IMG/VR virus record: IMGVR_UViG_3300025732_000134
Coordinates: 1-35,143 of that record
Length of the DNA: 35,143 bases
Origin: a virus
Strand: one strand, 5' to 3'
How positions within the stretch are numbered: position 1 is the first letter of the stretch; each line of letters opens with the position of its first letter. Of the stretch, positions 6,073-32,075 are shown piece by piece. The position numbers were made by a program, and so were the translations under genes. Under the pieces are notes generated by a model. The model saw nothing but the letters and a program-made list of their open reading frames with translations, had not been told where the DNA came from and did not search any database.

Positions 6073-7568
6073 TGGCTCCTAAATCACCCGCTGCTTTTCT
6101 TTATAACTTTTTGGGCCGTGCCGCACAAGACCCAAGAAATTATCGTTTCTTGCAAGAAGCCGCAGGAGATGTGCTCTCTCGTGTAATTCCAAAGGGCGTA
6201 AACTGGGGCGGGTTACCTGGCCAGTTTTTAAATACTCTTGACGATATCAGCAGAATGGCTCCTGGTGCAGCAAAAGAAGCTGCACGTACAAATGCAAAAA
6301 CAACTTTAACTCGCGCCGCAGTTTCTCCGCCATCACCTTCTTCTGTACGCATTGGCCCCGGTGGCTTGCCTAGTGCGCCTCCTATTGGCACACCAGTGGT
6401 GCGTCCTCCAGTAACAGCCAGGGCTCCTTCTACACCACTACCTGGCGGTGGTCCTTTTAATATTGATTACGCACTTCGTCGTGCCACTGGGTTTACCGGT
6501 TCTCCTGCGCAAATAGCAGAAAAACTTGGCATTCCTCTTACTAAACCAAAGCCAACATCTTTTTCAATGCCTATGGAGGGCATGCTTGGCCCGTCCAGCC
6601 CTCTTGGTCAAATCACTGCAAAAACATCAATGTTTGCAAGGGCACCTCAAAGTGCTCTGCAGACAGGTGTTGGGCAAGTCGGAGGACTACTGAGAAATCT
6701 CCAGGGACGTATCCCTACGGCACTCAATCCTTTTGCAACCCAGAATCCAACAACGTTATTAGGTAGAACAGGTAAGTTCTTTAATCCTTTAAATCCAGGG
6801 GGACCATTTAATCTTGTCAATACGCTTAATCCGGTCCCTGGCATCAGTGTAGGAACCAGACTTGCCTCTAGCCTTGGTTTGACAGGTGCTGCAGGACTTG
6901 GCACATCAGTTGCAGGCGGCCTGGCTGGTTATGGTGCACTTGAAATGCTTTTCCCACAAGGCACCGCCGATGGAACGTTAGAAGGAAAAGACGCATATCG
7001 AAATAATTACATGCCTTTTGGTGGAGACCCAAGTCTTCGTGACGCACAAGGACGTATTTGGGCAGGAAAAGATTATGGATTCCAGTCACCAGAGTCATTT
7101 AATAAGTTATTTAGTGGAGCACAACAAACTACGGCTGGTGGGGCTTCCCCGCCACCACCGACCCTCCCGCCTTCTGTGGATCCTGGGTCGCAAGCCGGAC
7201 AACTGATAACACCTCCCACACTTCCGCCTGCAGCCCCCGCTGCACCTGGTGGGCCTACGGTGTTATCTAACGGGGCCGGTGTTCCCGCACAACGTCAAAA
7301 TGTCAAAGAACGCCAACTCTCTCAAGACGTACTTAACGCTGCTCAGCAGTACGCTGCTCCTGCAGGTATCCCCCTTTCTTCCTTCTATGCGGGCCAGCAG
7401 CAACTGGGTAGGAGCATGGAACAGGGTGGAGAGCTTCAGCGTCGCTTGAAAGAACTTGGTGGCGCTGCTGGGATGAGCGATCAAGCCTTGATGGCTTGGG
7501 CTCAAAAGAACCCTGGCCTTGCTTACCGGGAGTTATTGAAACTCCAAAACAGAACCCCACAGATGTAA
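6072..7568 (+). CDS. Large Pro/Gly-rich virion protein, unknown
   Basis: The 498-residue protein starts at ATG 6072 inside the TAATG overlap; an upstream in-frame TTG (6063) is less likely. It is rich in Pro, Gly, Ala and Leu with long low-complexity stretches (about residues 90-150 and 350-400). Near 275-300 there is a hydrophobic Gly/Ala segment (AAGLGTSVAGGLAGYGALEM), and the C-terminal 100 residues look helical and soluble. These traits fit an internal virion or DNA-ejection protein with membrane-active segments. The family is not recognised. Confidence 0.72.
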   Translation: MAPKSPAAFLYNFLGRAAQDPRNYRFLQEAAGDVLSRVIPKGVNWGGLPGQFLNTLDDISRMAPGAAKEAARTNAKTTLTRAAVSPPSPSSVRIGPGGLPSAPPIGTPVVRPPVTARAPSTPLPGGGPFNIDYALRRATGFTGSPAQIAEKLGIPLTKPKPTSFSMPMEGMLGPSSPLGQITAKTSMFARAPQSALQTGVGQVGGLLRNLQGRIPTALNPFATQNPTTLLGRTGKFFNPLNPGGPFNLVNTLNPVPGISVGTRLASSLGLTGAAGLGTSVAGGLAGYGALEMLFPQGTADGTLEGKDAYRNNYMPFGGDPSLRDAQGRIWAGKDYGFQSPESFNKLFSGAQQTTAGGASPPPPTLPPSVDPGSQAGQLITPPTLPPAAPAAPGGPTVLSNGAGVPAQRQNVKERQLSQDVLNAAQQYAAPAGIPLSSFYAGQQQLGRSMEQGGELQRRLKELGGAAGMSDQALMAWAQKNPGLAYRELLKLQNRTPQM

Positions 7569-7573
7569 AGAAA

Positions 7574-8305
7574 ATGCCGGCACCCTCAGGACTTGCTGCA
7601 ATTTTTCCTCAAGCTTTTTTAAACGCAGCTTTTCGTATTGGAACCCAAGAAGCAAGAGATCCCAAATATGGGGCAAATCCAGGTACCATTACGTCTATTC
7701 TTAACCGCTACCACCATCCTGGTTATGGTAGTAATTGGCAGAAATGGTTACTAAATCCTAGCCAGTACGCTGTTCTTAAGAAACCACAAACCGAAAGCGG
7801 TTCTCAAGCACGTCAGTTTTACAATTCACCAGAAGGATTAAATCTTCTTCAGCAAACTGCGCAACAATTACGTGGCGCTACTGACTTTAGGTCGACATCT
7901 TACCTAAAAGATCAAGGTTTGTTAATGAAATATTCTGACAACTTGATTCCTGTTCAAGTTGGCGGACGCATTCAATACTTGCCACCTGCAGAACTAACAA
8001 AACGGAGGCTATCACCTTATTTACGAGAGAACACTTTTTTTAGTGAATCAGGGCCAACTAAGACACAATGGTGGCAAAGGTTAGGACCGCGCAGTGAAAC
8101 TTTTGAAGAAGAATTGTCCCCAATGGCTTTAAACAAAGCCGACATTGAATTGGCTGGACAAATGGAAACCATTGACGCATGGCAAAAGTGGTACAAAGAA
8201 AATAAAATTGTTGCCGAAATGAATGAACCGCTACTCTCAAAACGTGAAACTCCTACTTCTTCTTTTGCTAATTTTATGCGGGTTTTCGGAACACTTGGCG
8301 CATAA
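7574..8305 (+). CDS. SleB-like cell-wall hydrolase, tentative, virion associated
   Basis: The best start is ATG 7574, five bases after the previous stop, giving 243 residues (MPAPSGLAAIFPQAFLNAAF). Residues about 10-110 resemble the SleB/hydrolase_2 cell-wall hydrolase fold: IGTQEARDP near the N-terminus, an SxxNRY helix, LNPSQYAVLKK (compare the YxPxQF motif) and RGATDFRSTSY (compare GAxxF). The C-terminal half is charged and helical. If correct it would cut peptidoglycan during entry. The match is by eye, and the usual catalytic Glu may be E25 in TQEARD. It could be purely structural. Confidence 0.6.
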   Translation: MPAPSGLAAIFPQAFLNAAFRIGTQEARDPKYGANPGTITSILNRYHHPGYGSNWQKWLLNPSQYAVLKKPQTESGSQARQFYNSPEGLNLLQQTAQQLRGATDFRSTSYLKDQGLLMKYSDNLIPVQVGGRIQYLPPAELTKRRLSPYLRENTFFSESGPTKTQWWQRLGPRSETFEEELSPMALNKADIELAGQMETIDAWQKWYKENKIVAEMNEPLLSKRETPTSSFANFMRVFGTLGA

Positions 8306-11088: not shown

Positions 11089-11427
11089 ATGTTTTGCAAC
11101 GAGCACGAGCCCCTCGCCCTGCTAGTTGAACTAACACCAAAACTTGCCAAGAAACGTTTTAGAGAAAGTATATACCAAGCCTGGGGCTACAAGTGTGGTT
11201 ATTGTGGAGATACTGCCACAAGCCTGGACCACATCGTACCAAGGTTTAAGTCTGGTTCTTCTAATCGCCATAATCTAATCCCTTGTTGCCGGCGCTGTAA
11301 TGCGCACAAAGGATCAGAAGATATGCGAAAATGGTTTGAGAAGCAAACTTTCTTTTCTACTAAAACGCTTGATAGGATTGAATCCTGGATTAAACAGGAA
11401 TCTGTTTTTATTTTTGGTGAAGTGTAA
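11089..11427 (+). CDS. HNH endonuclease
   Basis: The 112-residue protein carries a complete HNH module with zinc-binding Cys pairs: CGYCG (about 41-45), SLDHIVPRFKSG with the catalytic His, NRHNLIPCC with the Asn, and RRCNAHKGS. Such small nucleases are often mobile homing enzymes in phages, though free-standing HNH proteins next to packaging or structural genes can have roles in DNA processing. Its stop overlaps the next ATG (TAATG), coupling it to a large virion-like gene. Homing enzyme or resident phage nuclease cannot be separated from sequence alone. Confidence 0.9.
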   Translation: MFCNEHEPLALLVELTPKLAKKRFRESIYQAWGYKCGYCGDTATSLDHIVPRFKSGSSNRHNLIPCCRRCNAHKGSEDMRKWFEKQTFFSTKTLDRIESWIKQESVFIFGEV

Positions 11428-25356: not shown

Positions 25357-26268
25357 TTAGGGCCTATTGGTTAAAGGCACAAAAAGTTCAGGAAAGCGTT
25401 CTGTGTCTTGATGCTCTCTATCCCAAGCATCTTGCCATTCAGACAATGAATGATCATGAACTGTATTGTAGTATTCATCATTCCCTACATCAAGAATAAT
25501 TTTATAATTACCATAATCAGCAGCAGGAATACGCTCACCAATATACCAGGTTATTCCTGAATTAACAGTCACTGTTACACCCGAGGCAATCTCGCAGCTT
25601 GTTTCAGAAAACGAATTAACGCTGATTACAAGATTGCTTAAAATAGGGCCTACAATTTCTGCAGCATCAATTTCGGTTTCTTGTAAACAAACAGCACCAT
25701 CAAAGTCTTCTAATTCAAAAAACGCTTCATTAACAGGAAACTCAATAACAACACCTACGTTATACGCAAGTGTTTCATTGCGTGTAGATGATACACAAAT
25801 AAGATAACTGCCAGTAGCTAATGGATAGTATCGATCATCTCCTTTGTCTAATCGAAAATAATTAAAAGAGTTGTACAAATCCGACTGATTACTTAACACC
25901 GTATCTAAATACGGAATGTACACTTCTCCATTAGAACTGTTATAAATTGAATCAGCATCGAATATACCATTACCTTGCAGAGGAATCTTGTTTAAATCGT
26001 ATGCGGAAATTTGAATGTATTGAGGACGTGGTGGCCCTTTAGACAAAATAATCCAACCGGGCTCTTGAAGAGTAACCGCAAACCAATGGTTGAATGTTCC
26101 ACCACCAATACCACCGTTTGATGTTTGATTAGTATCAGCGCGACCAATGGGTTTCCATTGGGCTCCAAGAGTTCCTTTTAGGTAACGCAGCGAAGTTTGA
26201 CTAAACGCACCAAGATTTAAAGGATTATCCTGAGTTCTTTGTGGCTGACTTACCGAACTCCTGGGCAT
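25357..26268 (-). CDS. Beta-rich virion-like protein on the early strand
   Basis: The preferred start is ATG 26268 (MPRSSVSQPQRTQDNPLNLG), giving 303 residues; an ATG pair at 26298-26301 is an alternative. Two beta-sandwich-like halves are visible: residues about 35-155 (GTFNHWFAVTLQEPGWIILS, FNYFRLDKGDDRYYPLATGS, YLICVSSTRNETLAYNVGVV), reminiscent of pre-peptidase C-terminal domains, then a variable second half with many Thr/Val/Asn. It ends with EWQDAWDREHQDTERFPELF. It looks like a surface or structural protein, although its neighbours on this strand are nuclease genes. No catalytic residues seen. Confidence 0.65.
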   Translation of the reverse strand: MPRSSVSQPQRTQDNPLNLGAFSQTSLRYLKGTLGAQWKPIGRADTNQTSNGGIGGGTFNHWFAVTLQEPGWIILSKGPPRPQYIQISAYDLNKIPLQGNGIFDADSIYNSSNGEVYIPYLDTVLSNQSDLYNSFNYFRLDKGDDRYYPLATGSYLICVSSTRNETLAYNVGVVIEFPVNEAFFELEDFDGAVCLQETEIDAAEIVGPILSNLVISVNSFSETSCEIASGVTVTVNSGITWYIGERIPAADYGNYKIILDVGNDEYYNTVHDHSLSEWQDAWDREHQDTERFPELFVPLTNRP

Positions 26269-26965
26269 ATGAACCGTAATACAACTCCTGTTCTTCATCA
26301 TAATCCGGGGTATTTTTGTGTATCAACGGATGTTGAATAGTATTTTTATACTGTTGCTCAACAATAAACACCGGTTTATCTCTCAGTTGATTTTGCGCAT
26401 GGTGCATTGATTTAACCGGATCAAACTCAATGCAAAATGGGTGGATGATTTTTGGTGGGAATGTACGGTTCCAGCTTGAGACTAAATGTAAGGGGTTAAG
26501 ACAGTTTTTGTTTTTGCACGTGCGTGTAACAAACATCTTGCCAACGTCTCCCCAAGCACATTGATAGATTGCCTTGTGGATATTGACATTGTCATTTGCT
26601 CTGGATTCATCAAGCGTGCGATAGGAAGGAAAACGCATTCGCCTGGAAGCCAGCCAAGGCACTTCCCAGCACTCATCCCATTCACCAACGGGGATTTGAT
26701 TCCAAAGTGTAAAAAGCCTGGATTTGTAGTTTTTGTTGAGGTAATTGATGTCAAAACCACAATTGTTTCCTTGTATTTTGCGCGCGCATTCGTAACACCA
26801 ATGTTGTTTTAAATCACGTACGCGGTGTCCATGAGCGCAGTAATAACCACGGTAAAAACCATGAGTTTTTAATTCTTGATTATCCATGTCATGTATACCA
26901 GGAATAAAAGGTACAGCAGAAATGGCTTTGGCGGTTTTGACGATTTGTTTAGTGATATCAGCCAT
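26225..26965 (-). CDS. HNH-type zinc endonuclease, large form
   Basis: The start at ATG 26965 is supported by AAGGAG nine bases upstream, giving 246 residues. An N-terminal zinc-ribbon-like part has CAHGHRVRD and HWCYECARK. The middle resembles the cyanophage HNH family: WDECWEVPWLASRRMRFPSY, VNIHKAIYQCAWGD, then TCKNKNCLNPLHLVSSW with the Asn-Pro-x-His end of the HNH site. The C-terminal 75 residues are charged. Likely a homing or free-standing DNA endonuclease. It overlaps both neighbours by a few to 44 bases. Confidence 0.75.
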   Translation of the reverse strand: MADITKQIVKTAKAISAVPFIPGIHDMDNQELKTHGFYRGYYCAHGHRVRDLKQHWCYECARKIQGNNCGFDINYLNKNYKSRLFTLWNQIPVGEWDECWEVPWLASRRMRFPSYRTLDESRANDNVNIHKAIYQCAWGDVGKMFVTRTCKNKNCLNPLHLVSSWNRTFPPKIIHPFCIEFDPVKSMHHAQNQLRDKPVFIVEQQYKNTIQHPLIHKNTPDYDEEQELYYGSYAQEFGKSATKNSG

Positions 26966-27383
26966 GGTCAGAAGACTCCTTGTGAACGAAGCGGTAATTG
27001 GTGTGTGAATCGCGAAAAACAAGATTACCTTCTTCGTCTCTGACTCGACGCCTGTACTTAGGTGCTGGGCGCGTACGTCGTTTGTACAGCGCCAGGTTTA
27101 AACGGTTATCGCGGGCCGTGTTGTCTTTGTCATGCAACACATCTGCATCCCCTGGGTCATCACCAGTACGCAAGTAGTACACGACACGGTGAGCTGGATA
27201 GCGGATACCAAGAAGAGATACAACATAAAACCTGCCATCCGTACGCATGATCCCTGCTGGTTCACCGACATCATGATGGCGATTGGCTGTCCTCCACTTA
27301 AGGCCGCAAGGGTGATCGGAGGTAAGTTCCAGATTTTCTTGCGTCCACCAGAGGGGTGGCATCTCGTGATAAGTACGGGCCAT
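26958..27383 (-). CDS. HNH homing endonuclease
   Basis: With the start at ATG 27383 the protein has 141 residues. The core is of the HNH_3 type: LLGIRYPAHRVVYYLRTG, then VLHDKDNTARDNRLNL, in which the His, Asp/Asn and NRLNL match the metal-binding finger of phage homing nucleases. A basic tail (KRRTRPAPKYRRRVRDEEG) follows and may bind DNA. It is the first gene after the 300-bp inverted-duplicate region and overlaps the next nuclease gene by 8 bases. No strong ribosome binding site is seen; an in-frame TTG at 27425 would extend it. Confidence 0.85.
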   Translation of the reverse strand: MARTYHEMPPLWWTQENLELTSDHPCGLKWRTANRHHDVGEPAGIMRTDGRFYVVSLLGIRYPAHRVVYYLRTGDDPGDADVLHDKDNTARDNRLNLALYKRRTRPAPKYRRRVRDEEGNLVFRDSHTNYRFVHKESSDHG

Positions 27384-27417: not shown

Positions 27418-27719
27418 GGGCACAAAAGCGGTATGTGCGGTGTACGTGTCGTTAATTCACCGTTTTAAGAGCGCGACTACATGCTTATTTATCTTATATA
27501 AGCCGTGATTACTTTTTATTTAAAAGTGTCGCATTAATCTGGTTTGTCTTACTTGCGTCTTACATAAGATTGCAAACCATTCTCAATAGCGACACTTTTA
27601 TTTCAAAACAGAGCACAGTTACCTTATGGTAAATACGGATGTAGTCGCGCTCATCACAACACGGTAAACACCCTCAATACTATCCCACTTACCGCGCATA
27701 CCTGCTTATGGGCACAAAA
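27418..27719. repeat. Inverted duplication of about 130-140 bp flanked by a 10-bp direct repeat
   Basis: This is the only stretch over 300 bases without a gene (27384-27762). Two diverged copies lie head to head around a centre near 27558. Perfect paired blocks are 27469-27482 with 27639-27652 (14 bp, GAGCGCGACTACAT), 27521-27532 with 27589-27600 (12 bp, TAAAAGTGTCGC), 27541-27546 with 27573-27578, and 27547-27551 with 27565-27569; outer ends 27426-27441 and 27691-27707 pair with one bulge and one mismatch. GGGCACAAAA flanks the whole at 27418-27427 and 27710-27719. Each arm also has its own small palindrome at matching places (27493-27502, 27619-27632). It could be a replication origin, a structured RNA, or a MITE-like insertion. 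Confidence 0.75.
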
Positions 27720-27741
27720 AAGCCCCTGCCGAAGCAGAGGC
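27716..27741 (-). terminator. Intrinsic terminator of the replication operon
   Basis: On the minus strand GCCTCTGC, loop TTCG and GCAGGGGC (27741 to 27722) are followed by six T (27721-27716). It lies 21 bases after the stop of the glycosyltransferase gene. Confidence 0.92.
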
Positions 27742-27762
27742 CTGGTTCCCCTTGACGCCTGC

Positions 27763-29040
27763 TCAGGTTACTGCATCTGTTTTTTCTTTCCGCAGACTCC
27801 TGCTTTTTTTTCGATTCCGTGGTGTCTTCTTCGTCTCAGCTGGGACTGAATGATCCACCTGCTTCATGACATCCTCAAAGATGCCACCAAATTGAGACGC
27901 AACTGTGTCCCATGAGAACTGTGAATCCAGTGCCCGTTCACGGCAGCGTTGGCCCACCAATTCCCGATACCCCCTCCCTTGGTACAAGTCATTCAAAATC
28001 TCAGCAAGGTGGTCAGAGGACGGGCATGGCATCTCCCGTGCGTAGTTGGTGTCCACATCGATGTGGTCGCAACGGATCAGTTCGCCGTAGCCCTCGAAGA
28101 TCTCTTTGCAGGACGTGTGGTCGGGCACCACCTGCGGCACACCACAGGCAGCGTGTTCAAAGTTGACAAGCCCCCAGCCCTCACCTTTACAAGTGTTGAC
28201 GCCCACATCGCATGCGTTATAGATGGTGTTGAGCGTGTCTACTGATACGTTCGGCGGTCCTTCCGTCTGCGTGGTCATAATGATGCGACCGTTAGGGTCC
28301 AGGCCAACCTTGGACATCTCCCTGGCAAAAACACCCATTACATCCCAGCCTTGGTCCTTCAAGCCCATGTGGAGGTAAAGCTGTGCTTCTGGTTTACCTA
28401 CAGCAAATTGGGCAAAGGCCTGGATCGTAATGTCAATCCGTTTACGGAATTGATTCCTGTTCCCGTTAAACACAATAAAGATGTCTTCCTTAAGACCCAG
28501 CTTGCGACGACATTCATTCCGATCCACGGGATAAAACTGCCCTGGTGTTACACCATGGGGGATAACAGCAATTGGTTTACGGATACCGCCTTTCACAAAT
28601 TCGTGCGCACCAAATTCCGTGTAGGAAATGATGGCATCCCAGTCGTTGGCTGTATCAGCAAGACAACCAATCCAGCCATACGAATCCATGGGCGCATACC
28701 CCACGAATTTAAATTTACCTTGCTTGTGGAGGTCTTCAATCTGACGGTACTGCTCATTGATGATCCACATGTCATTGATTGTGAAGACAATGTCAGGCGT
28801 TTCTTTTTCAACGACTTCACGGATGCGTTGCTCACCAAAGGGTGCAGTTTGAAAACGATTAGATGACGGATAAATTTTAAAATCCTTTTGTTGTTCACAT
28901 GGATCACCCCACCAGTTGTGACCAAGGACTACGATTTCAAAGTCATCCTTCAAGCGATAGATGACGTTTTCAGTTACACGTGCAAATCCAGTCATGGCGA
29001 CGATATCGCCACACCACAACACTTTAGTTTTTTTTGTCAA
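27763..29040 (-). CDS. Glycosyltransferase, GT-B fold (GT4-like)
   Basis: The 425-residue protein has a Rossmann-like N-terminal half (KVLWCGDIVAMTGFARVTEN), a linker with AVIPHGVTPGQFYPVDR, and a C-terminal nucleotide-sugar-binding half with FNGNRNQFRKRIDITIQAF and NACDVGVNTCKGEGWGLVNF. EGWGLVNFE gives the EX7E motif of retaining GT4 enzymes. A Lys/Arg-rich tail of about 30 residues ends the protein. It could glycosylate phage DNA, a virion protein or a host surface polymer; the operon with DNA replication genes makes DNA modification or superinfection exclusion both possible. It is the last gene of the operon. Confidence 0.9.
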   Translation of the reverse strand: MTKKTKVLWCGDIVAMTGFARVTENVIYRLKDDFEIVVLGHNWWGDPCEQQKDFKIYPSSNRFQTAPFGEQRIREVVEKETPDIVFTINDMWIINEQYRQIEDLHKQGKFKFVGYAPMDSYGWIGCLADTANDWDAIISYTEFGAHEFVKGGIRKPIAVIPHGVTPGQFYPVDRNECRRKLGLKEDIFIVFNGNRNQFRKRIDITIQAFAQFAVGKPEAQLYLHMGLKDQGWDVMGVFAREMSKVGLDPNGRIIMTTQTEGPPNVSVDTLNTIYNACDVGVNTCKGEGWGLVNFEHAACGVPQVVPDHTSCKEIFEGYGELIRCDHIDVDTNYAREMPCPSSDHLAEILNDLYQGRGYRELVGQRCRERALDSQFSWDTVASQFGGIFEDVMKQVDHSVPAETKKTPRNRKKSRSLRKEKTDAVT

Positions 29041-29064: not shown

Positions 29065-29424
29065 CTATACCGAAACAGAAGGAGTTATCGACCGTACCAA
29101 CTCTTTCTCTTCTGCTGTTTTTGCTTTAAGTTTTGTTTTTAAAAACTTAGCCGCTCGATGCGTTTGAGTCGTATCACCACAGGTGTACAAATCAATAGCG
29201 CAATATCCAATCTCTGGCCACGTATGTATTGATGCGTGTGATTCTGACAGTAATGCTAACAACGTCACTCCCTGCGGCTCAAACTTTTCACCAAAAATTC
29301 GTAAGACGTTTGCTTTTGCCATGACGAGAGAAGCCTCAAGCAATCGTTGAAGCTCCTCATAGTCATTAAGAATTCCTGGGTCGCATTCATAAAGATCCAG
29401 GATTAAATGGCGACCATTGTTCAC
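29065..29424 (-). CDS. speD: S-adenosylmethionine decarboxylase proenzyme
   Basis: The 119-residue protein matches bacterial SpeD over its whole length. The self-cleavage site is clear: LLSESHASIHTWPEIGYCAI, with Glu61-Ser62 as the cut that makes the pyruvoyl group on Ser62, His67 nearby, and Cys82 in LYTCGD. It makes decarboxylated SAM for spermidine synthesis. speD is a known cyanophage auxiliary gene. Its ATG overlaps the primase stop (ATGA), so it is translated with the replication gene; polyamines could help neutralise phage DNA. Confidence 0.94.
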   Translation of the reverse strand: MNNGRHLILDLYECDPGILNDYEELQRLLEASLVMAKANVLRIFGEKFEPQGVTLLALLSESHASIHTWPEIGYCAIDLYTCGDTTQTHRAAKFLKTKLKAKTAEEKELVRSITPSVSV

Positions 29425-32075
29425 ACTTCTATTGCAATATTCTCCATTGTCGCACTAGTAGGTGTAGTAATGTCTATTCCATATAGTGGCATGTACTTCT
29501 GTGGATTAGCAGCCACTTCAACAATAGAAGGATAGGTTTCGTATTTGGGATTTGACTCTCGTGTTACTGCATTAAATACCATCAAACCCTTGTTGGTTTT
29601 CTTGCTAAAGACATTAAGTTTTAGCTGGTGCTTACAGATGTCAAAGAATAGAACTTCAAATCGACCACGTCCCACAAAACCAACGTTGCAACTGCGGCAA
29701 AATTCTGCGTAACTTGCATAAAGCCATTGTTGCCAGTTCTGATAGAAGTTATTAGAACCTTGCGCGTTTTTACAAGTACCTACAACAGACTTAGCCCCTG
29801 GATCATAGACAACATGTTGACTCATCCAATCCAGTACAGGATTAGAACGCAGGCTTTGTTCCTTCTCATACTTCTGGAAGAAATCGACATGTTGTGCGGT
29901 CTCCATAAGGTAGGAACGCATGTCAGCTTCTGGCATATCTAGCAGCCAGTTCACAAGCCCTGGCAGCAAAGGAGCAAACTCACCCTGCGGATTACCCTTG
30001 TTATCAAACTTAATCAGTTCTTTTTGTTCTGCTTGGCCGCCAGTAAATGGACGGTCAAATGGAATGGTAAGGCGCCGACGAGCAAGGCCAGACGTGTAAT
30101 CAGTGGACTGAATAGCTTCATTAGCAGTAATGATGACCATCCCATGGTATTGAAATGGATCTAATGCCTCTCCCTGGTATTTACGTTCAGAACGAATCCA
30201 ATCGTTACCAGTGATTGCTTTCAGTCTTGATACGGAGCCACCCCAACGATCAGCGTCTTGGAACAGCAAAAGTTTTTTACCCATGTAAGCCGCTGCTTCA
30301 AAGCGGTTTTTTTCCATGTTCTCAAAGTCCGTGGAATAGGTATTGCTCCGACCAACCAGTGCTACCGCAAGGTTTGCGTAAGTGGACTTACCAGATTTAC
30401 CTGGACCCACAATCTCCAGAAACTTCTGGATCTCGTAGTTACCAAGGAGTGTTGCACGCAGCCATGCCCTAAGCACTTGCGTACGATTCCAGGAATTGTG
30501 TTGGGTGTGTTTTAACCATTTAATAATTTGTTCACAGGTAGCCGATGGATCGTACTCATATGGCATTTGTTGCGTGATATATAAATCTCGTTTAAACGGA
30601 TGCAATTCCCTGGCGCTAACCTCAAGCAGCCCATTGGTAAACAACAGGTAGTCCATGCCGTCATACCAATCATCAAACGGTACTAACGCTTGAAGTTGCT
30701 TGTACATATCTTCCATTAGGTTGTGATTAAACCCTCTGGGTAACCAATCAGTTGCGGTAAGATCTTTTAAATTTTCCCGGATGGTGCCATACATCTCAAC
30801 TTTGGTTTGTTTTTCCCATAGCCCCCTCCTTGGGTCATAAAGAAAAAACTGGTTGTGAGGTTGGCTGAATAGCAGATTACCTGCGTAAGCAACAAGAAGT
30901 TGATCAGCAATTTCATGGGAAGGCCGGTTGTGCCCCCTGGCATCTTTAGGTTCTTTACTATCTGTTTCTTTTTTCCTGTTGCGTGTTAATGGTTTTGTCT
31001 TTAAAGGGTTTTTAGATGTTTGGAATGTTTCTGAATTTTGCTCTAATACTCTTTCCATGTGCTCTAAAGTGTCACCTTCAAGGTTGGGCAGTATTGAAGC
31101 AATTGCTTCTAAAGTTGCGTCATTAACGCTTTGTACGCGATAGTCTTGAGAAGGAACCCAACCGTTTTCTTTGGCGACATGAACGAGTGATCCGATACCA
31201 CGACCACCGCCTTTACTAAAAGAAAGCCAACGTCTATGGCATTCACCTTCTTTGTACTTATCGCTTTGCTTGGACCATTCATCCCATTGATCCAACAGCG
31301 ACTCATCCAAGCTGTGGAGCGACTGACCAACCGTGATCCAGATGTCATAATCATCCGTCGCTTCTGGAGGCATACCCCACATTGCTTCGGTTGCAACTTG
31401 GATATCACGATCCAGACCGATGACACTTTGGATAGCAAAGTTACCGCCGATCACACGTGATACTTCTTTTGCGGGTTTACCATGCTTGGCGTTTTTGGTG
31501 ATGATGTTATTAAGGATCCAGTCCGGTAGTTCAGGCAGAGAATCAGACCACTCAAAGCCTAAACCTTCAGCCGTGTAATAACCATCTGTTTCCGGATGTG
31601 TACCCATCAGCACCCCCTGGTGCTTTTTCCAAAGAATTTCAAGTTTCTCTTTATTTTCTTCTCCGTGCCAGGTGTATTTATTACGAAGAAAATGCTTGTG
31701 TTTATCGCGGTTTAGTTTGTAGAGTTTGCGTTCTCGGCCAATTTTACCACTGAAGATGGTAAGGGTGGCAGGCAGCGCGTCCTGGAGGGGAAGGCCGGAG
31801 ATTTGCTCAATGAGTGGATAGATACTAGGTCCATCAACATCAACCCAGACCAAACCATAAGGATGGTTATAGGCAGGGCCGCCAAGTACACCAATTGCTT
31901 TACAGTCACCGGTTGCAAGCTCTTCTTCAATTTCTTTGACGCTAAATGGTTTGTTCTGCCAGCCCTGGATATACGGGTCTTTATTTGCTCCTAATGGAGT
32001 TAACGGCCAGTCCAGAGGAATGTAATCGAGCCGAATTTCACCTGGCTTAAGTGACTTCTGGTTCTGGTTTGTCAT
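29421..32075 (-). CDS. PrimPol-type DNA primase fused to SF3 helicase
   Basis: The 884-residue protein has a primase-polymerase domain at about residues 10-190, with Asp79 and Asp81 in YGLVWVDVDGP as metal-binding residues. A PriCT-2-like region follows near 235-310 (DDYDIWITVGQSLHSLDESL), then a Lys/Asn-rich linker, a D5_N-like part (SQPHNQFFLYDPRRGLWEKQ, about 400), and an SF3 AAA+ helicase from about 540: Walker A GPGKSGKST near 556, Walker B LLLFQDAD, C motif MVIITANE, and arginine-rich GLARRRLTIPFD. It should both prime and unwind DNA at the phage fork. The last 150 residues include SYAEFCRSCNVGFVGRGRFE, likely a DNA-binding end. No DNA polymerase gene is in the window. Confidence 0.92.
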   Translation of the reverse strand: MTNQNQKSLKPGEIRLDYIPLDWPLTPLGANKDPYIQGWQNKPFSVKEIEEELATGDCKAIGVLGGPAYNHPYGLVWVDVDGPSIYPLIEQISGLPLQDALPATLTIFSGKIGRERKLYKLNRDKHKHFLRNKYTWHGEENKEKLEILWKKHQGVLMGTHPETDGYYTAEGLGFEWSDSLPELPDWILNNIITKNAKHGKPAKEVSRVIGGNFAIQSVIGLDRDIQVATEAMWGMPPEATDDYDIWITVGQSLHSLDESLLDQWDEWSKQSDKYKEGECHRRWLSFSKGGGRGIGSLVHVAKENGWVPSQDYRVQSVNDATLEAIASILPNLEGDTLEHMERVLEQNSETFQTSKNPLKTKPLTRNRKKETDSKEPKDARGHNRPSHEIADQLLVAYAGNLLFSQPHNQFFLYDPRRGLWEKQTKVEMYGTIRENLKDLTATDWLPRGFNHNLMEDMYKQLQALVPFDDWYDGMDYLLFTNGLLEVSARELHPFKRDLYITQQMPYEYDPSATCEQIIKWLKHTQHNSWNRTQVLRAWLRATLLGNYEIQKFLEIVGPGKSGKSTYANLAVALVGRSNTYSTDFENMEKNRFEAAAYMGKKLLLFQDADRWGGSVSRLKAITGNDWIRSERKYQGEALDPFQYHGMVIITANEAIQSTDYTSGLARRRLTIPFDRPFTGGQAEQKELIKFDNKGNPQGEFAPLLPGLVNWLLDMPEADMRSYLMETAQHVDFFQKYEKEQSLRSNPVLDWMSQHVVYDPGAKSVVGTCKNAQGSNNFYQNWQQWLYASYAEFCRSCNVGFVGRGRFEVLFFDICKHQLKLNVFSKKTNKGLMVFNAVTRESNPKYETYPSIVEVAANPQKYMPLYGIDITTPTSATMENIAIEV

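Follow-up and report, generated by a model that had tools for sequence, protein, structure and literature searches.

The sequence studied here, referred to below as the window, is a viral record of 35,143 bases from IMG/VR, and its source phage is a relative of the freshwater cyanophage S-EIV1 (66% identity for the glycosyltransferase and 56% for the primase). On the minus strand the elements of interest follow each other in the order primase, speD, glycosyltransferase (GT), terminator, palindrome, HNH-like gene and endonuclease-like gene. The primase-helicase gene (29421-32075, minus strand), identified by domain and structure matches, encodes a protein of 884 amino acids that we propose as the initiator. 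It is followed by speD, encoding an S-adenosylmethionine decarboxylase (29065-29424, minus strand; PF02675), by the GT gene (27763-29040, minus strand; domain matches) and by the intrinsic terminator of the primase-speD-GT operon (27720-27743, minus strand), which precedes a T run and is conserved in relatives. Beyond the palindrome lies a small HNH-like gene (26958-27383, minus strand; phrog_99) with a likely ATG at 27383, which is missing from some relatives, and then a gene for an endonuclease-like protein of 265 amino acids (d265; 26225-27022, minus strand; phrog_1872; first ATG at 26965), which comes next in nearly all relatives. Another small gene for an HNH endonuclease (PF01844) is located at 11089-11427, on the strand opposite to the replication operon. 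In S-EIV1, where the locus (L202:7270-8317) corresponds to about 7027-8074 of KJ410740, the tblastn match to the 265-aa gene begins about 180 bp upstream of the annotated CDS AHV82135, and two tiny CDS on the opposite strand, AHV82136 and AHV82137, are annotated within the same stretch; the annotation of this stretch is probably wrong.

The palindrome (27428-27695), proposed here as the replication origin on the basis of its self-complementary alignment, its folds and its uniqueness in the window, is situated where the initial annotation had put it, between the operon terminator and the HNH gene. The self-complementary alignment scores 81, whereas 2000 sequences sampled from an order-1 Markov model of this stretch gave a mean of 16.7 and a maximum of 44, and the inverted repeat is thus real. 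It is by far the top inverted repeat of the window (score 65; next 25). The fold reaches about 27424-27713, with a minimum free energy of -102.3 kcal/mol for the plus strand (z = -9.6) and -108.4 kcal/mol for the minus strand (z = -7.3), and no shuffle folded equally well. The longest exact paired blocks measure 14 bp (GAGCGCGACTACAT, 27469-27482, with the right inverted copy at 27639-27652) and 12 bp (TAAAAGTGTCGC, 27521-27532 on the plus strand and 27589-27600 on the minus strand); according to alignment and box enrichment, the latter pair contains, in inverted orientation, the AAAGTGT box that is found family-wide. The best ungapped arm pair (27469-27532 and 27589-27652) is 64 nt long and 73% complementary. 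The cluster of boxes at the centre consists of GTCTTAC (27546-27552, plus strand; box scans), the near-palindromic GTCTTACATAAGATT (27557-27571, plus strand), which the alignment of relatives and the box scan identify as the window's form of GTCTYATRAGAC, and TGAGAA (27580-27585, minus strand), conserved in the alignment of the window's clade. The coordinates, the exact blocks and the GGGCACAAAA repeats had all been given correctly in the initial annotation. Its description as two copies of 130-140 bp holds with respect to the inverted repetition, but what is present is really one imperfect palindrome, of which the central region of ~55 bp is itself partly paired. The sequence GGGCACAAAA occurs exactly twice on the plus strand of the window, as an outer copy at 27418-27427 that is not conserved in relatives and as an exact match at 27710-27719 that overlaps the tail of the terminator, as had been remarked, and is conserved in relatives as part of it.

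A scan based on the GT gene yielded 80 loci, most of which possess a long inverted repeat right after GT with a score of about 40-116 (at most 29 in the shuffle control). Pooling a primase-alignment scan with a scan using the S-EIV1 primase gave 89 usable loci, some of which are overlapping pieces of one contig. No more than 4 kb downstream of the primase, 81 of these 89 have the top inverted repeat of the whole locus (counted at a score of at least 40; the mean is 73.5, against 31.3 for the next best). The whole palindrome is kept in these, and the loss of a single arm, which had been put forward as a refuting observation, was mostly not seen. Genome-wide, too, it ranks first among inverted repeats in eight of the nine near-complete genomes, one of the eight being S-EIV1. 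Each genome has a single palindrome, and its position is constant across the S-EIV1-like clade, the primases of which are down to about 55-60% identical, and no empty site was seen across the loci of the clade. The 81 palindromes are flanked by GT and HNH (62), GT and d265 (14), speD and d265 (3), speD and HNH (1) or HNH and d265 (1). In four loci (L283-L285 and L305) the GT gene is on the opposite side of the palindrome, and where an ORF has been inserted after GT the palindrome comes behind that ORF. Given these varied neighbours, the palindrome is not the leader of one gene but a module of its own, associated with the stretch that follows the primase. The search for the 14-bp block elsewhere, as suggested earlier, returned 119 stretches; outside the syntenic loci the whole element gave only short matches, which argues against a dispersed element.

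Eight of the 89 loci lacked an outstanding palindrome, and some of these end at a contig end. Some relatives seem to lack the palindrome in the 500 bp past GT, but in several of them the element is located further on, behind an inserted ORF. Such an ORF, of about 116 amino acids, is found in one lineage (L181, L182, L187 and L191-L194), about 0-350 bp after GT. Seven loci with an unchanged gene order (L131, L133, L264, L265, L275, L282 and L335) have only a weak palindrome; these relatives may have lost the element or may use another arrangement. No comparable palindrome was detected in the stretches searched of three phages with distant PriCT_2/D5-type primases (L242-L244). The largest and most regular palindromes, of about 350 bp and with scores of 105-116, are found downstream of GT in L152, L153, L156, L157 and L162, the same five loci in which GCTATAC is repeated 5-7 times, resembling a lineage-specific iteron.

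Two motifs last across the family: GTCTYATRAGAC occupies the centre, and AAAGTGT boxes stand on either side of it at a distance of 30-60 bp. When 35 distinct elements were compared with the rest of their loci, AAAGTGT was seen 40 times (0.8 expected) and GTCTCA also 40 times (5.9 expected). Within 30 bp of the centre there are 44 occurrences of GTCTYA, against 1.9 expected per bin and often in the form of GTCTYATRAGAC, and AAAGTG is found 39 times at 30-60 bp from the centre. Within a larger set of 62 distinct elements the central box is present in 40 and the flanking box in 33 (4.7 and 4.5, respectively, in shuffled sequences), and the boxes are therefore common, not universal. The repeated boxes stand in an inverted array inside the palindrome.

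The primase carries PriCT_2, D5_N and DUF5906 domains, while its similarity to the P4 primase family stays below the curated cut-off. The whole-chain AlphaFold2 model has a pLDDT of 67 overall, with better values for the domains. Residues 11-202 of the model match the prim/pol domain of pRN1 ORF904 (1rni; Z 10.0, 3.7 A over 168 aa), PriCT_2 is recognized by domain match at residues 229-301, and the D5_N/SF3 helicase part, at about residues 368-740, is assigned by domain and structure match, with residues 368-842 resembling the primase-helicase of SaPI5 (7ola; Z 18.5). Residues 743-848 match the origin-binding domain of phage P4, both within the whole model (Z 9.7) and when the C-terminal domain was predicted alone (pLDDT 82), in which case the P4 domain was the top solved match (1ka8; Z 9.6, 3.1 A over 94 aa; Foldseek E 0.002, probability 1.00). 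For the domain alone, the Z-score and the Foldseek comparison both rank it above the RFX winged helices. According to the models, the primase would join a prim/pol domain of the pRN1 type to an SF3 helicase and to a winged helix that resembles the P4 origin-binding domain, although likeness of fold is no proof of function. The solved PrimPol of African swine fever virus is also among the best structural matches, for the helicase and C-terminal parts.

Taken together, we consider it probable that the palindrome is the replication origin of the phage, which is the one favored by the evidence of the two alternatives to transposition named in the initial annotation. The C-terminal domain of the primase would then bind the AAAGTGT and/or GTCTYATRAGAC boxes, and the inverted arrangement, perhaps with the arms extruded as a cruciform, would load two opposed SF3 hexamers. 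These could melt the centre of the palindrome, where the prim/pol domain would lay primers to be extended by a DNA polymerase in both directions. The GC-skew analysis that had been suggested as a check for an origin showed no consistent change of sign at the element in the window, S-EIV1 and eight near-complete relatives.

The palindrome could instead encode a long rod-like RNA, either free and non-coding or acting as a leader of the downstream endonuclease genes. The very strong folds of both strands fit such an RNA, and so does the fact that in almost all relatives HNH, the 265-aa gene or both lie downstream of the element, a placement that holds despite an inserted ORF or a moved GT gene. 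Selection on an RNA should, however, yield more G-U than A-C mismatches on the sense strand. We counted 323 G-U against 388 A-C in 50 loci and 338 against 403 in the 62 distinct elements (sign test p 0.06, toward A-C), so that neither strand prefers wobble pairs, whereas the adjoining terminators, under similar scoring, had 33 G-U and 5 A-C. On this ground, the strand-specific tolerance of G-U in helices being absent, a structured non-coding RNA is disfavored, and the pairing is maintained at the DNA level. Predicted stability favors neither strand, the fold of the GT strand having the lower energy in just 15 of 35 elements. The Rfam search of the whole window gave no match at the gathering score, although Rfam would not contain a family that is new, and promoter-like sites were not above chance. 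The structured RNA, which had been offered earlier as the second alternative, is consequently unlikely.

A DNA control site of another kind than an origin is improbable, too, for instance one for partition or condensation, for recombination or fork stalling, or an operator cluster for a phage regulator. Short conserved boxes in an inverted array, pairing at the DNA level and a single copy per genome would all suit such a site, but just upstream there is a gene for a protein predicted to have an origin-binding domain, and the absence of promoter-like sites above chance applies here as well. Neither a protelomerase (PF16684) nor a tyrosine recombinase (PF00589) was found in nine related genomes, and a protelomerase (telRL) site was dismissed on the former result.

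The arm sequences diverge between lineages while being self-complementary inside each genome (arm similarity of 0.319 within a genome versus 0.073 between genomes). Nevertheless, when the window is compared with close relatives, exact pairs turn out to be broken more often than compensated: the covariance check that had been recommended, with the fold of the window mapped on relatives, gave 5-17 compensated against 31-47 broken pairs, and classic pair-by-pair covariation is therefore not claimed. Since single pairs are often broken, the arms may stay similar partly through template-switch correction. Template switching has been described as homogenizing inverted repeats (PMC8604942), and this precedent, together with arms that are more alike within than between genomes in spite of their broken pairs, could suggest a quasi-palindrome that is kept by template switching during replication and has no function of its own. 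Such an explanation is very improbable, as it accounts neither for a single copy at one place across a clade with primases of such low identity, nor for boxes that are conserved and keep a fixed spacing from the centre. Going by the sequence comparisons, what is conserved is the palindrome as such and not its individual base pairs, and the pairing at the DNA level is maintained by selection, by template-switch correction or by both. The MITE-like transposable element that was proposed initially, on account of the inverted outer ends and of the flanking 10-bp direct repeat as a target-site duplication, was rejected as scarcely credible, given the single copy per genome, the constant position without an empty site, and a direct repeat that is specific to the window genome, lacks its outer copy in relatives and is partly terminator.

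Returning to the replication origin, it is possible, albeit doubtful, that the palindrome is recognized as extruded DNA and that these phages have large, fast-evolving cruciform origins, of which the initiator reads the shape plus two short boxes. The arms would then be free to change as long as they remain complementary, and a first box consensus would be defined for the origins of prim/pol-SF3 initiators. To our knowledge, the way in which self-contained primase-helicase initiators choose their origin is understood in detail for very few replicons, and for the plasmid pRN1 the mechanism is disputed between rolling circle and melting by the SF3 helicase. The 62 distinct natural versions of the probable origin share their layout of boxes and come with the matching initiator sequences, so that origin choice becomes testable, and the palindrome provides a candidate origin for a cultured freshwater cyanophage, S-EIV1. 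Among the open-licence literature we found no paper that describes the element in these phages.

Several known origins resemble the arrangement in part. The oriL of herpes simplex virus is likewise a large palindrome with inverted initiator boxes around the centre, but its initiator (UL9, an SF2 helicase) is unrelated and its centre is AT-rich. The likeness to P4 (alpha and ori/crr) and to the pri-rep-ori module of SaPI-type PICIs concerns the P4-type C-terminal origin-binding fold and the SaPI5-like helicase, both of them predicted only, the short repeated boxes and a probable origin near the initiator gene, PICI origins being located immediately 3' of that gene (PMC6092414). The cyanophage primase is, however, of the archaeo-eukaryotic prim/pol type whereas P4 has a Toprim primase, and the boxes reside inside one large palindrome instead of forming two iteron sets around an AT-rich stretch.

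The closest resemblance is to the pRN plasmids and to the Bordetella phages BIP-1/BPP-1, where the replication protein likewise combines a prim/pol domain, an SF3 helicase and a C-terminal winged helix (predicted folds in our case). In the Sulfolobus plasmid pRN1 the orf56/orf904 operon is followed on its 3' side by a terminator and then a stem-loop of 100 nt; within this region the stem-loop alone is needed for replication, it still works when moved, and in pRN1 relatives its structure is kept and its sequence is not (PMC4234260; for an independent deletion study see PMC3869888). The same authors pointed to a comparable layout in phage BIP-1, the protein of which contains a PriCT_2 domain (PMC4234260), like the cyanophage primase. 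Our scan of BIP-1 located a strong palindrome (26592-26724) about 450 bp away from where the replication protein is stated to end; the top inverted repeat of that phage (L245:33236-33631) coincides with the annotated variable region 2. A need of the stem-loop for replication has been demonstrated for pRN1 only, the origin of BIP-1/BPP-1 being a proposed one. In the window, too, the operon strand runs from the terminator (27743-27720) into the palindrome (27695-27428), an arrangement that is similar in relatives, and structure is conserved while sequence diverges, as the arm similarities given above illustrate. The cyanophage palindromes differ in being longer (about 140-350 bp against ~100 for the pRN1 stem-loop), in being usually separated from the primase by speD and GT, and in having conserved boxes (GTCTYATRAGAC at the centre, AAAGTGT on the flanks), whereas pRN1 is said to lack iterons. 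By analogy, the palindrome is best read as a larger, motif-bearing variant of the stem-loop origins of pRN1 and BIP-1.
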